38,778 bases of DNA from Cyanobacteria bacterium SW_9_44_58 (lineage in GTDB: Bacteria; Cyanobacteriota; Cyanobacteriia; Cyanobacteriales; Rubidibacteraceae), in assembly GCA_003021905.1 (NCBI GenBank), contig PXPI01000118.1, positions 1-38,778 of the forward strand, in the 5' to 3' direction. The stretch's first letter is position 1, and each line of letters opens with the position of its first letter. Below are positions 6,966-11,074 of the stretch, one piece after another. Made by a program: the position numbers and the translations under genes. Below the pieces are notes generated by a model. That model was not told the origin of the DNA, made no database searches, and was given only the letters and a program-made list of their open reading frames with translations.

Positions 6966-9350
6966 ATGACACAACTCTCTCAAAACGGCTCACAGTTATC
7001 GGATCAGGTCAATACAATTTTAAACTTGTTGCGACAAGAAACAGAGCTTAATCCGACACTGAATCCTTCCGATGTTGAAGCTGATTTAAAGAAAGTCATT
7101 GCCCCGAAATTTTATATCGTGTTTGCGGGTGCCTTTAGTGCCGGGAAGTCCATGTTAATCAATGCCCTATTGCGACGAGAACTATTATATACTGCAGAAG
7201 GACACGCCACTGGCACTGAATGTTCCATTGAGTACGCCGAAGCAGATGAAGAACAAGTAATTATCACATTTCTCTCGCAAACGGAGATTCTAGAACAAAC
7301 TGAGGTTCTTTGTTCTCGTTTGCAGTTAGATCCCCTGACCGATCTTGATGATACAGATGCGATTCAATCTTTGCAACAAGCCTGTCGCAATATCATCGAG
7401 CAAGAAGGGGGAGAAGGACGTTCCGATCGCGCTAAACAAGCCAAAGCCCTATCTTTATTATTAGCAGGATATCAAAAAAATCAAGAACGCATTGGGGTCA
7501 AGGAAAATAACACCTATTCCATGGGAGAGTTTAATTTTTACAACCTAACAGAAGCAGCCAGTTATGCCCGTCGCGGCAGTAATAGTGCTGTTTTAAAACG
7601 GTTGGATTATTATTGCCATCATCCGTTATTAGCTGATGGGAATGTCATCATCGATACTCCTGGAATTGATGCACCAGTAGAACGCGACCGCGCCCTAACT
7701 TACGAAAAAATTAAAGACCCTGATACCTCTGCTATTGTCTGTGTTTTGAAACCGGCATCGGCAGGAGAAATGACAACAGAAGAAACCGAACTTTTAGAGT
7801 TAATTCAAAATAATCCTGGGGTGCGCGATCGGGTTTTTTATGTGTTTAATCGGATTGACGAAACTTGGTATAATGGGCAATTGCGCCAACGGTTAGAACA
7901 ATTGATTTCTGAACAATTTTGGGACAGCGATCGCGTTTATCAAACCAGTGCTTTGTTAGGTTTTTATGGGAGTCAAATTTAACAAACCAGTGAGCGCGAT
8001 CGATTTGGTTTAGACTCCATTTTCTCAGAAGGAGTGAGAACGTTAGGTGGCGAAGAAGACACCCCGCAATTTGTTAGCGAATTCAACAATTATTGTGCCA
8101 ATTCCGGGAAGCTATCCAATACAAGTTTCCGGGTTTCCCTACACAGTTATGAAACCCCAAATCAAAACTATGTTCGCATTTTAAGTGAATGGGGAAACTC
8201 CTTAATCAACCAACTTATACAAGATAGCGGCATCGAAGATTTCAGCACAGCAATTACCCGCTACTTAACCGAAGAAAAACGCCCCCAACTTTTTATTACC
8301 CTTGCTAAAGACTTAGAAGAAATTTGCATTCCATTAGCCGAACATTGGCAAGCGGTTTATCGCGACTTAATGAGTCAACCCCAAGAAATTGAGTCGATGA
8401 AAACGCAGGAATTGCAACAACTGAATCAGCAATTAAAACAAGTGGGGGAAGAATTTCAAACGCACCTTTCCCAAGAAGTGAATCAAGTGATTGTGAATGG
8501 CGACAATGCTTTTGAAGCAGACTTTAATCAGTTACAAGCGAGAATGGTGACTCGTCTGGATGAATTATTGCAAACCTTTTCCGTACGTGATGCCTATAGC
8601 CGCGCTACACAGACACATCCTAATAATTCCACAGCACCACTGATTGCTGTCTTGGTAGAGGCGTTGTATTATTTGGCTAATGAGTTGGAAAAAGTGTTAG
8701 AAGAAAGTGCAACCTTAATCATCGAGAACTACTTTCAACAATTGCAGGAAAAACTGCGTCATCAAGATTATTATCGTCGGCTTTATCGGTTGCTGGGAGA
8801 TGACAGCGGCATTGAAAACCAACTGGAAACCGTCAAAAATACCTTAATCATTGCCATGAAAAACGCAGCGCATACAGAATGCGATCGCTACGTGCGAGAA
8901 AGTCCTCGTTTTTATGATGAAGGAACATTTTCCATTTATCAATTCCGCCAAACCCTACAACAAACCTCTCAAAGTTATGATGCTGAAAGTATGGTTAAAG
9001 CGGAACCTTCCATTCGTCAATTATTAAAGCTAGACTTTGAACCCAAAGTTGATCAAACCATTCGCAGCAATTTCCGCCAAATCATCAACAATAGTTTGAA
9101 AAAGAATCTCTTACCGATGGCAAATCAACAAGCAGAAGCCATCTTAAAGCAATATGAAAAAGCCCGCAGCAATTTAGAACAAACTTTGGAACAAGAAGCA
9201 GAAGCACGCCTTGCAAAAAATCAACAGTTACAATCAGAAACAGTGGAAAAAGTGAATCAGTATAATGAGGCAGTGCAGGGGATTAATTGCTGTTTACAAC
9301 AATTAGAGTTGTATGAACATCAGCTAAACGAAATTAACTTACCGCAATAA
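6966..9350 (+). pseudogene. Dynamin-like GTPase, split by an in-frame TAA stop
   Basis: Bacterial dynamin-like proteins are large GTPases that remodel membranes; some have been linked to stress or phage tolerance. Counting from ATG 6966, the P-loop GAFSAGKS is at 55-62, the G2 region is ATGTECSIEY, G3 is IIDTPGID and G4 is VFNRID. The second half is a long helical stalk with coiled coils. A single TAA at 7980-7982 interrupts the frame just after the GTPase domain (GFYGSQI, stop, QTSERDRFGLD). Reading continues in the same frame to 9350, so a full protein would have about 794 residues. CAA to TAA is the simplest cause. A GTG at 8034 could restart the stalk part. A TTG at 6891 could extend the N-terminus, but I prefer the ATG. 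It is likely a recent pseudogene or a two-part gene. Confidence 0.85.
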
Positions 9351-9430: not shown

Positions 9431-9736
9431 ATGAATGACTATAACTTTCTTGATAACAAAAATGTCGTATATTTTCAGTCTGATCGGTTTGATTTTGACC
9501 AAACGATGAAGATAGAACAAATTAAACAAAAAATTACCCAATGGATTACTCAGTACTTTAAGGGTGGTAGACAAATATTTCCTTATTTTATTGATAATTG
9601 TGAGGTTTTGCAACAAGATAGTAAGGGTTGGAAAAAGGGAAAAATTAGGATCTGTTTTGAGTTTATTCCCAATGAAGAGGAAACAGCAGAAAAAGAAACT
9701 AAATCTAATCAGGGAACGCTAGACGTAATTGATTGA
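9431..9736 (+). CDS. KGK-domain protein, first of four tandem paralogues
   Basis: This 101-residue soluble protein opens with an acidic beta segment (NVVYFQSDRF) and has a helical middle. The core reads NCEVLQQDSKGWKKGKIRI, with the KGK motif at about 69-71 and the conserved Cys at 57. The KGK domain is a small cyanobacterial family of unknown function. It is the most divergent of the four: the C-terminal ESPLDDVR tail seen in the others is replaced by GTLDVID. The ATG follows GAGG. It heads a tight plus-strand run of five genes ending in an HNH nuclease. Confidence 0.8.
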   Translation: MNDYNFLDNKNVVYFQSDRFDFDQTMKIEQIKQKITQWITQYFKGGRQIFPYFIDNCEVLQQDSKGWKKGKIRICFEFIPNEEETAEKETKSNQGTLDVID

Positions 9737-9750
9737 AGGAGGTTCTACTA

Positions 9751-10140
9751 ATGGAAGAACAGGAACAGTATAGAAAAATTGAATGGGAAGAAGATGATGT
9801 AATTGCATTCTCTCAAGCGGACATAAAAAATTCTGGTTTTATTTTGGAAAGTTTAGAAGAATCAATTCAATATGATCGTTGGGGACAAAATTTAACTCAG
9901 AATCTTTCTAGCAATTTAAATATTGATGGTAGAAAAATTGTACCAGGTAACGGTAACAATTCTGATCGTTTTACTCAATGGTTTGACGAAGGAATAGATT
10001 GTAAAATAATGCGAGCTTATGATGCTAAAGGTTGGCGTAACGGCAAAATTCGCGTCAAACTCAACATTGAATTTGAACTTTGGGAAGAAAAGGAAGATGA
10101 ATCAGAGTCTCCCTTAGATAATTTTCGAGAAAATCAATAA
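9751..10140 (+). CDS. KGK-domain protein, second paralogue
   Basis: The protein has 129 residues from ATG 9751, chosen because AAGGAGG lies just upstream; an in-frame TTG at 9733 would overlap the previous gene. It shows the same plan as its neighbours: EDDVIAF near the start, a conserved Cys at 84 (IDCKIM), and KGWRNGKIRV at 93-102 with the KGK motif changed to NGK. The tail is ESPLDNF. A Gly- and Asn-rich insert at about 55-72 makes it the longest member. It is not recognised beyond the KGK family. Confidence 0.78.
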   Translation: MEEQEQYRKIEWEEDDVIAFSQADIKNSGFILESLEESIQYDRWGQNLTQNLSSNLNIDGRKIVPGNGNNSDRFTQWFDEGIDCKIMRAYDAKGWRNGKIRVKLNIEFELWEEKEDESESPLDNFRENQ

Positions 10141-10155
10141 TAGAAGGCACTTAAA

Positions 10156-10491
10156 ATGAATAACAATCCAGAAAAATTAAATGGCGATGAAGTTATTGCA
10201 ACATATTACGAGGACGAACAGAATTTAATTCCACACAAAACTTTTAAAGCGGAGCAGTTTTTAGAAGCAGTAAGAGAAGTTTTATTCACTACAAGAAAAG
10301 AAAGAGAATTACTAACTCGTTATGAATGGGGAAGTGAAGGAATCGCTTGTGAAGTACTATCTCCTAATAAAAATTGGCGTCAAGGTAAAGTAAGAGTTAA
10401 AGTAGAGCTTGAGTTTTTACCCGATGAAGCTGAAAAGCCTTACCATAATACTGAATCTCCTTTAGATGATGTAAGAAACGGTAGTAGTTAA
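10156..10491 (+). CDS. KGK-domain protein, third paralogue
   Basis: This 111-residue protein carries GDEVIATYYEDEQ at the N-terminus, a helical middle, conserved Cys 65 (IACEVL), and NWRQGKVRV at 73-81, where the motif reads QGK. The tail is ESPLDDVR. It lies 15 bp after the second paralogue and 21 bp before the fourth, so one transcript is likely. The middle region varies most between paralogues, while the Cys, W-x-x-GK and tail segments are held constant. Confidence 0.78.
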   Translation: MNNNPEKLNGDEVIATYYEDEQNLIPHKTFKAEQFLEAVREVLFTTRKERELLTRYEWGSEGIACEVLSPNKNWRQGKVRVKVELEFLPDEAEKPYHNTESPLDDVRNGSS

Positions 10492-10512
10492 TAAGCTAAC
10501 TATAAATTAAAA

Positions 10513-10824
10513 ATGAGTCACGATTCCAAAAAATTGAAGCAAGATGATGTTGTTTTCTTTGAAGACGAAAATCAAACATTGTTCACAAAAACATTTAAAG
10601 TTAGTGATTTTTATGATTGGCTATGTCGAATTTTTTATGATTCTATTGTGGGTAGCAAAGAAAAAAAAGAAAATTTTGTTGGAGAAGGAACCGATTGCCA
10701 TATTTTACAACCGGGTCAAAATTGGAAAAAGGGAAAAATTCGGATCGCGATCGAGTTTATCCCTGATGAAAGCGAATCACCATTAGATGATGTTCGTCAA
10801 GACAACAGCAATCATGAAGAATAA
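10513..10824 (+). CDS. KGK-domain protein, fourth paralogue
   Basis: This 103-residue protein has QDDVVFFEDENQTLFTKTFK near the N-terminus, closely matching the third paralogue. The conserved Cys is 62 (TDCHIL), NWKKGKIRIAIEFIPDE lies at 70-86 with an intact KGK, and the tail is ESPLDDVR. It overlaps the HNH gene by 11 bp, which suggests translational coupling. The ribosome site is weak (A-rich leader), as for the third copy. Confidence 0.8.
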   Translation: MSHDSKKLKQDDVVFFEDENQTLFTKTFKVSDFYDWLCRIFYDSIVGSKEKKENFVGEGTDCHILQPGQNWKKGKIRIAIEFIPDESESPLDDVRQDNSNHEE

Positions 10825-11074
10825 GTATGTCCAAAAAGCGCGATCGCGCATTCCAATTCCCCCAGAAGTAAAAAACCATGTCTTTCAACGCAACAACTAT
10901 CAATGTCAAAGTTGCGGAAAAACAAAACAGGAAACGGCGTTAGAGATTGACCATATTATTCCTATTGCCAGTGGCGGTTCCAACGATATTAGTAATCTAC
11001 AAACGTTGTGTCGTACTTGCAATAAACGGAAAAAACATCATTTCGATCCACGCTTTCGTCGTCACTTTGATTAA
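10814..11074 (+). CDS. HNH endonuclease, small McrA-like
   Basis: The 86-residue protein starts at ATG 10814 inside the end of the fourth KGK gene. A basic N-terminus is followed by a compact HNH domain: C31 and C34 (CQSC), the DH pair D46-H47 in EIDHIIP, N61, then C66, C69 and N70 (LCRTCN). The four cysteines would bind a structural zinc, and D46/H47/N61/N70 fit the beta-beta-alpha metal site. It is little more than the nuclease domain, so target choice may depend on partners. Such proteins act in defence, mobile DNA or host functions; the role here is inferred from the array only. A more upstream in-frame ATG at 10787 is less likely. Confidence 0.88.
   Translation: MKNKYVQKARSRIPIPPEVKNHVFQRNNYQCQSCGKTKQETALEIDHIIPIASGGSNDISNLQTLCRTCNKRKKHHFDPRFRRHFD

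Follow-up and report, generated by a model that had tools for sequence, protein, structure and literature searches.

Many cyanobacterial SynDLP-type dynamins head a conserved gene row of variable KGK genes and one small HNH gene

Introduction

What is a small nuclease-type gene doing at the end of a row that begins with a dynamin studied for membrane shaping? The question is raised by contig PXPI01000118.1 of Cyanobacteria bacterium SW_9_44_58 (assembly GCA_003021905.1), analysed here over its full 38,778 nucleotides (hereafter the window), in which a dynamin gene is followed by four divergent open reading frames (ORFs) with a KGK domain and by one ORF for a stand-alone HNH protein. A sequence-only reading of this stretch had proposed that the KGK proteins are sensor, specificity or immunity subunits controlling one nuclease, and that the whole may be an undescribed conflict or membrane-stress system. 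Comparison across the class provides a first answer: SynDLP, KGK and HNH genes form a widely conserved cyanobacterial gene row, comprising the dynamin, usually some KGK genes (0-7 per locus ahead of the HNH gene) and one small HNH gene.

Part of this row is already familiar. Among cyanobacterial dynamins, a KGK clade has been defined by work that names a downstream KGK gene (PMC5827413), and SynDLP, a structurally solved bacterial dynamin whose cellular task is still sought, has been placed within it (PMC10104851). As far as the accessible parts of the latter paper go, SynDLP is expressed, is apparently non-essential under standard growth, binds thylakoid lipids and is expected to be restrained by accessory proteins. 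Dynamin and KGK genes are common to those reports and to the loci described here, whereas the array, the divergence of the KGK proteins and their tail are not described in the accessible parts of either, and the term 'HNH' has no occurrence in the two main texts. No description of a dynamin-KGK-HNH link was found in a literature search that left subscription journals and supplements outside its scope. The earlier suggestion of an undescribed system is thus supported for the HNH link and not for the linkage of dynamin and KGK, which is already published. Should a nuclease-type gene close the operon in most SynDLP-bearing families, the current picture of thylakoid membrane dynamics and repair would be incomplete; the dynamin, and with it the orphan KGK family, for which no structural relative was found, would gain a direct, testable partner. 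The arrangement suggests that in many species a membrane-shaping dynamin is tied to a nuclease which, if true, would be a new way of coupling membrane damage to nucleic-acid cleavage.

Linkage across cyanobacterial genomes

The sample comprised 242 genomes of the class. KGK domains were found in 106; the SynDLP stalk was present in 82, although in three (G092, G130, G226) as a weak or partial remnant; HNH relatives occurred in all 242, and close relatives (at least 87 bits) in 62. From 86 stalk matches, a set of 80 SynDLP places, window included, was obtained by dropping six rows (G198:C21, G226, G130, G092, a second weak match in G191 and a second piece of one gene in G081). A locus was counted if at least 2.5 kb lay downstream of the dynamin, giving 73 loci, in which KGK and HNH genes were called by profiles built from those same loci. 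Both partners were present in 40, HNH only in 11, KGK only in 8 and neither in 14. Downstream of the dynamin, this amounts to HNH at 51/73, KGK at 48/73 and either at 59/73, with 0/73 upstream, and HNH was found in 21 of the 23 genome families represented. The 65 loci with 2.5 kb on both sides had HNH downstream in 44 and KGK downstream in 41, with neither upstream in any. None of the 51 HNH or 123 KGK genes lying within ten genes of the dynamin departed from its strand. KGK and HNH genes were adjacent in 33 of the 51 HNH loci, at a median gap of 2 bp and with 15 of the 33 overlapping, and just 16-215 bp separated dynamin and HNH in seven of the eleven HNH-only loci.

Genome-wide co-occurrence agrees with this arrangement. 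SynDLP was present in 58 of 62 genomes with a close HNH relative vs 24 of the 180 others (58/4/24/156 for both, HNH only, SynDLP only and neither; nominal Fisher p 2e-31); the corresponding tables were 62/44/20/116 for KGK and SynDLP (8e-13) and 46/60/16/120 for KGK and HNH (2e-8). Whether KGK genes lie near HNH or dynamin genes beyond chance had been left as a check by the sequence-only reading; in the sampled genomes the linkage was far above chance, both by position and by these tests. Pairwise distances of dynamin and HNH were also correlated (Mantel r 0.61, n=51, permutation p 2e-4). As a control, 19 other dynamin matches at E<=3e-14 were taken from 15 genomes picked for holding the cassette; read from the listings, an HNH_5 match over the cut-off lay within 10 kb of 0/19 of these vs 15/15 SynDLP genes. 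A second, named set consisted of the best 80 of 280 stalk relatives in GTDB contigs, of which 69 had at least 2.5 kb downstream; 31 carried both partners, 6 HNH only, 4 KGK only and 28 neither, with an upstream match in one. Many of the empty loci in this set are labelled as Nostoc and Microcystis, whereas the locus of Picosynechococcus PCC 7117 (L183) holds the dynamin, four KGK genes and HNH. The dynamin is best seen as the constant part of the row, since it persists without the rest but a close HNH relative without SynDLP is rare (4/62); the HNH gene would depend on the dynamin more than the reverse. On one contig (G225:C55), kept out of the counts, KGK and HNH genes stand without a dynamin.

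The locus in the window

The gene row that had been read from the letters was borne out in its coordinates, domain matches and base composition. Four same-strand ORFs lie between 9431 and 10824, spaced 14, 15 and 21 bp apart; the 86-residue HNH ORF, for which a longer start at 10787 is possible, overlaps the fourth by 11 bp (Table 1). All four ORFs pass the PF08872 cut-off, the match of the first covering only the C-terminal part of the model; no other KGK match occurs in the window's genome. A conserved Cys and a W-x-x-G-K motif were read by eye in the KGK ORFs, as was an ESPLD[DN] tail in three of the four, the first being without it. The KGK-HNH stretch is AT-rich (GC 0.339 vs 0.427 for the whole window). 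A match of the first KGK protein to ABC-3C CTD11 (E 0.0065) fell below the cut-off and was disregarded.

Table 1. Features of the dynamin-KGK-HNH locus in the window
Feature	Coordinates	Strand	Evidence	Reciprocal best match in G150
SynDLP-type dynamin, N-terminal (GTPase) part	6966..7982	+	Dynamin_N E 1.7e-17; ends at in-frame TAA	
In-frame TAA splitting dynamin gene	7980..7982	+		
Dynamin C-terminal (stalk) part	7983..9350	+	same frame past the stop; ORF from GTG 8034	
KGK paralogue 1, 101 aa, no SPLD tail	9431..9736	+	PF08872 E 6e-9	KGK 1, 52% identity
KGK paralogue 2, 129 aa	9751..10140	+	PF08872 E 3.2e-18	KGK 3, 65% identity
KGK 2 C-terminal tail SPLDNFR	10108..10128	+	sequence reading	
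KGK paralogue 3, 111 aa	10156..10491	+	PF08872 E 1.2e-16	KGK 4, 47% identity
KGK 3 C-terminal tail SPLDDVR	10456..10476	+	sequence reading	
KGK paralogue 4, 103 aa	10513..10824	+	PF08872 E 3.8e-13	KGK 5, 39% identity
KGK 4 C-terminal tail SPLDDVR	10777..10797	+	sequence reading	
Stand-alone small HNH protein, 86 aa	10814..11074	+	PF14279 E 1.3e-23, PF01844 E 3.6e-17	

The dynamin-like GTPase noted upstream is, by sequence comparison along both GTPase and stalk, an orthologue of SynDLP (Slr0869, PDB 7zw6), and this part of the earlier description stands; what it had missed is that the gene is broken by an in-frame stop. The GTPase half matches residues 4-339 of 7zw6 (E 5e-132) and the stalk half residues 361-786 (E 1e-165). 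ATG 6966 is the likely start, since the match to 7zw6 begins at query residue 29. The stop codon is absent from the copy in a genome of the same genus (G150), which is intact, and the stalk half still looks constrained relative to that copy (83% identity, dN/dS 0.06), which argues for a recent break or a sequencing fault. The stop in the window dynamin probably reflects a fresh break or a misreading, and this copy of the row may accordingly be failing. It belongs to the SynDLP/KGK clade by descent and has a KGK gene directly downstream; its ORF is not intact, and it possibly does not work here. A split stalk of another kind was seen in G198, where it is spread across two contigs (G198:C21:31187-32053 and L172 = G198:C94), the second carrying three KGK genes after the stalk part and no HNH gene that could be found.

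Divergence and fold of the KGK proteins

Across the locus set, many KGK genes diverge much faster than the genes on either side of them. Between the window and G150, the stalk is 83% and HNH 74% identical, against 39-65% for the four KGK pairs, and most of the other 13 locus pairs compared show a similar contrast between KGK and dynamin or HNH, albeit not for every KGK. Simple Nei-Gojobori estimates on these 14 locus pairs (38 KGK comparisons) gave dN/dS of 0.03-0.11 for the dynamin in the 12 pairs whose dS was finite; for KGK most values lay at 0.06-0.4, the outliers being 0, 0.78 and 1.74. The contrast in identity was mainly relied upon, since many dS values were saturated. The proposal of conserved ends with a variable middle finds support among diverged proteins: of the 18 pairs (out of 38) below 70% identity, 13 had their lowest conservation in the middle third and 13 had their highest in the last third. 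When every pair is included the pattern fades, to only 16 and 17 of 38, respectively.

The order of KGK genes is kept in the same-genus locus pairs compared. Of the 107 KGK proteins in multi-copy arrays, only 12 are matched best by a member of the same array, whereas 83 are closer to some KGK outside their labelled genus group than to any array neighbour. The scarcity of within-array best matches suggests that the paralogues are mostly old, diverging types rather than fresh copies, and most KGK types appear on these comparisons to be older than the genera. One raw KGK count of eight takes in a long KGK-matching ORF behind the HNH gene; such ORFs of more than 300 residues with a KGK match lie behind HNH in L110, L111, L112 and L113, and in L111-L113 their overlap with the HNH ORF is 61 bp.

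KGK proteins often end in SPLD[DE][IL]R, preceded by an acidic linker. A loose form of this tail was found in 81 of 119 linked KGK proteins (four ORFs above 300 aa left out), divided among loci with HNH (70/97), loci without it (8/17) and cut loci (3/5). At DNA level, 17 matches to the tail pattern were found in six whole genomes, 15 of them inside KGK arrays, vs seven for the reversed pattern; the strict form was found in none of the non-KGK ORFs of the dynamin loci. AlphaFold models of KGK 2 (pLDDT 77.5, pTM 0.64) and of a KGK from G116 (pLDDT 85.2, pTM 0.54) agree on a core topology of a hairpin, helices and two strands, and the latter predicts a helix over the tail. Searches of the PDB with both models, and of viral structures with the G116 model, gave no match at E<=0.001, and re-comparison of the KGK 2 model with 237 PDB chains gave none at Z 2.

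The HNH protein and the search for defence functions

By a score over the cut-off and by its conserved residues, the small terminal protein is a member of the HNH endonuclease family, with predicted nuclease activity. The D-H, N and C-x-x-C-N positions, which we take to be the catalytic and zinc residues, are 96% conserved in the 51 dynamin-linked copies, the window's included. Of the linked and unlinked copies placed in one tree, the unlinked do not form a group of their own; at least four of the label changes are forced by well-supported branches, and 3 of 500 shuffles gave a number as low. This intermixing suggests that HNH copies leave or join the locus repeatedly. In one genus (L282, L283, L284, L285), the HNH gene has a second home, where it overlaps the preceding gene by 4 bp; in L283, the sole one checked, that gene is of RibD type.

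Searching PADLOC for a known anti-phage system returned only partial matches, to the GTPase and HNH domains, and no model covers the parts of the row; KGK 2 and KGK 3 (the two KGK proteins scanned) and the stalk half had no match. The HNH stretch matches IscB at E 1.7e-17, with 63.5 bits against a cut-off of 175. An IscB-type RNA-guided nuclease was rejected, the 86 aa HNH stretch standing alone against a 314-position model and far below the cut-off. Further partial matches over the HNH stretch were to a type II restriction enzyme model (4.7e-10), a type IV restriction model (3.6e-7), DpdF (3.5e-9) and, at about 1e-5, Septu PtuB and Zorya ZorE; no partner genes of the IscB, restriction, DpdF, Septu or Zorya systems were identified in the window. 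To our knowledge, a KGK or HNH partner belongs to neither the DynA nor the LeoA/LeoBC system. The GTPase half of the window dynamin matches PADLOC LeoA at 3.9e-12, at the start of the GTPase region only. DynA of Bacillus subtilis is, like the window protein, of the dynamin family, and a role against phage is reported for it in the accessible part of PMC8844932.

A scan of the flanks covered 92 proteins (the window HNH and 91 neighbours picked from 172), with no control set. At 1e-5 they contained 28 PADLOC families, most with 1-4 members, including PDC-S03, mad2/mad3/mad8, SduA, TIR and Pycsar, but also GlgB and subtilase; the 25 listed of the 128 Pfam families are mainly metabolic, transport and signalling. 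As to mobility, the dynamin stalk had no match in a plasmid collection and no confirmed relative in viral contigs. There were 42 viral HNH relatives, the five best at most 52% identical and the maximum of any 62%, over 21 residues.

Expression in published data

In a lexA mutant of Synechocystis, slr0868, slr0869, slr0870 and slr0871 show ratios of 6.3 to 16.1 in both comparisons with the wild type (PMC4759255), the column meaning being taken from the surrounding text and slr0870 and slr0871 being known here by locus tag alone. Such a joint rise fits one transcript. In the part of that paper available, salt-stress genes are also up, and LexA binding is shown for other promoters only. The accessible text of two other studies reports slr0869 as lower in two triple sigma-factor mutants (PMC8875361) and an antisense RNA to slr0869 (PMC5306279). 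Across 50 genomes of the G065 family, none of the orthologues besides G065's own exceeded 73% identity to the G065 protein, and Synechocystis PCC 6803 was not found.

Interpretation

What, then, might such a row do? We lean tentatively, with somewhat less than even confidence, towards a lexA-responsive membrane-surveillance module in which KGK adaptors would couple dynamin assemblies to a nuclease. It is the combination of gene order, co-orientation, co-occurrence, KGK divergence, the tail, the HNH residues and the published co-rise in the lexA mutant that points this way; the coupling itself is inferred. The dynamin would assemble on stressed or attacked membranes, and each KGK protein would act as an adaptor, its variable body meeting a changing partner and its tail docking on a shared component. 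The KGK set may restrain or target the dynamin and/or the HNH protein, and the HNH protein would cut nucleic acid, foreign or own, once the membrane alarm had been raised. A bolder version, which we regard as unlikely, would make SynDLP and its relatives the membrane-sensing arm of an unrecognised cyanobacterial immune system, with a dynamin lattice, formed where the membrane is breached, recruiting an array of exchangeable, fast-evolving KGK sensor-adaptors by way of a shared SPLDDIR tail, and an HNH nuclease released or targeted. This version accords with the fast KGK divergence and with the role reported for DynA; any tie to defence against phage is as yet unproven.

The chief competitor of a defence reading is plain membrane-stress regulation. 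On this account, which we hold to be somewhat unlikely, the operon would serve membrane stress or thylakoid repair and have no part in conflict: KGK proteins would regulate SynDLP assembly and GTPase turnover, and the HNH protein would perform a housekeeping task on nucleic acid that the same conditions call for. The lipid binding, expression, non-essentiality and expected accessory restraint of SynDLP all sit comfortably with it, as do the rise of slr0868-0871 alongside salt-stress genes, the persistence of the dynamin without KGK or HNH, and the mainly metabolic, transport and signalling families listed for the flanks; yet the fast divergence of many KGK proteins and large swings in KGK number would be unusual for housekeeping regulators, and membrane repair by itself hardly accounts for a conserved nuclease-type protein. 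Could the HNH protein instead be a free-standing selfish or homing-type nuclease that settled in the locus, with KGK genes as passengers and the dynamin as the sole working part? Its subfamily does live elsewhere, as in the second home described above (four genomes, all of one genus), unlinked copies are interspersed with linked ones, and further genes, a TacA-type antitoxin gene among them, lie in the gap ahead of HNH. Side, strand and order are, however, the same across 21 families, SynDLP is present in nearly all close-HNH genomes, and the divergence of dynamin and HNH is correlated; we consider this account improbable. The overlap of almost half of the adjacent KGK-HNH pairs (15/33) and the small size of the proteins recall toxin-antitoxin or immunity logic, in which KGK antitoxins would hold an HNH toxin in check. 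This we consider very doubtful, given that up to seven KGK genes precede a single HNH gene and that the two are not always together (HNH without KGK at 11/73 loci, KGK without HNH at 8/73). Together with the KGK genes found between ccsB and tilS (8/20, below), the same counts tell against the original proposal that KGK proteins are subunits controlling one nuclease.

It is worth setting against the surveillance module the observations that weigh on the other side. Physical interaction, nuclease activity and membrane triggering are parts that the model predicts, the conflict system first envisaged is likewise conjectural, and the scan of 92 flanking proteins, which lacks a control, revealed no clear defence island. 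A substantial share of SynDLP loci (14/73 sampled, 28/69 named) do without KGK and HNH, the p values of the co-occurrence tests are too small since the sampled species are related, and one non-SynDLP dynamin of the control (G211) has a sub-cut-off HNH_5 match about 8 kb away. The HNH tree is weakly resolved, with 19 unlinked and 51 linked copies intermixed through 12 label changes. Some KGK proteins are 94-100% identical beside others at 39-68%, the former being conserved like the dynamin, and no positive selection on KGK was seen, dN/dS lying below 1 except in one pair with almost no synonymous change. The tail also occurs in HNH-less loci (e.g. G231, G050) and in some unlinked KGK proteins; its partner may therefore be the dynamin or something else and need not be HNH. 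Among the 20 unlinked KGK loci examined, eight have the KGK gene preceded by ccsB and followed by tilS, sometimes with genes between, and this second home suggests a more general cyanobacterial domain that is not specific to one nuclease system. Finally, the accessible parts of two papers describe DNA-metabolism genes as unchanged in the lexA mutant (PMC4759255) and slr0868 as chosen for integration in part because its expression changes little between conditions (PMC8272380), both at odds with stress induction.

Other gene arrangements

ccsB serves in cytochrome c biogenesis and tilS encodes tRNA lysidine synthetase. In one locus they were recognised by TIGR03144 and TIGR02432, in the remaining ones by similarity, the eight loci (L255, L258, L259, L262, L264, L269, L272, L273) coming from four genome families. 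An SPL[DE]DLR tail is found in three of them (L258, L259, L264). KGK domains with long acidic low-complexity extensions occur at L255:2887-4212 (441 aa), where the extension holds repeated short motifs, and at L256:2929-3939 (336 aa).

Other genes also enter the space between dynamin and HNH. At L153:5474-6270, SynDLP and HNH are separated solely by an antitoxin gene, checked to be of TacA1 type, and its partner of about 169 residues, and the same antitoxin-type pair is found at L141:6801-7594 together with two KGK genes. In related genomes (L108:6583-8377, L099:6688-7875, L105:6260-6835), genes of about 191 and 394 residues lie between KGK and HNH; the shorter is Uma2-like, matching PADLOC PDC-S03 in L108, and the longer is DUF2252-like.

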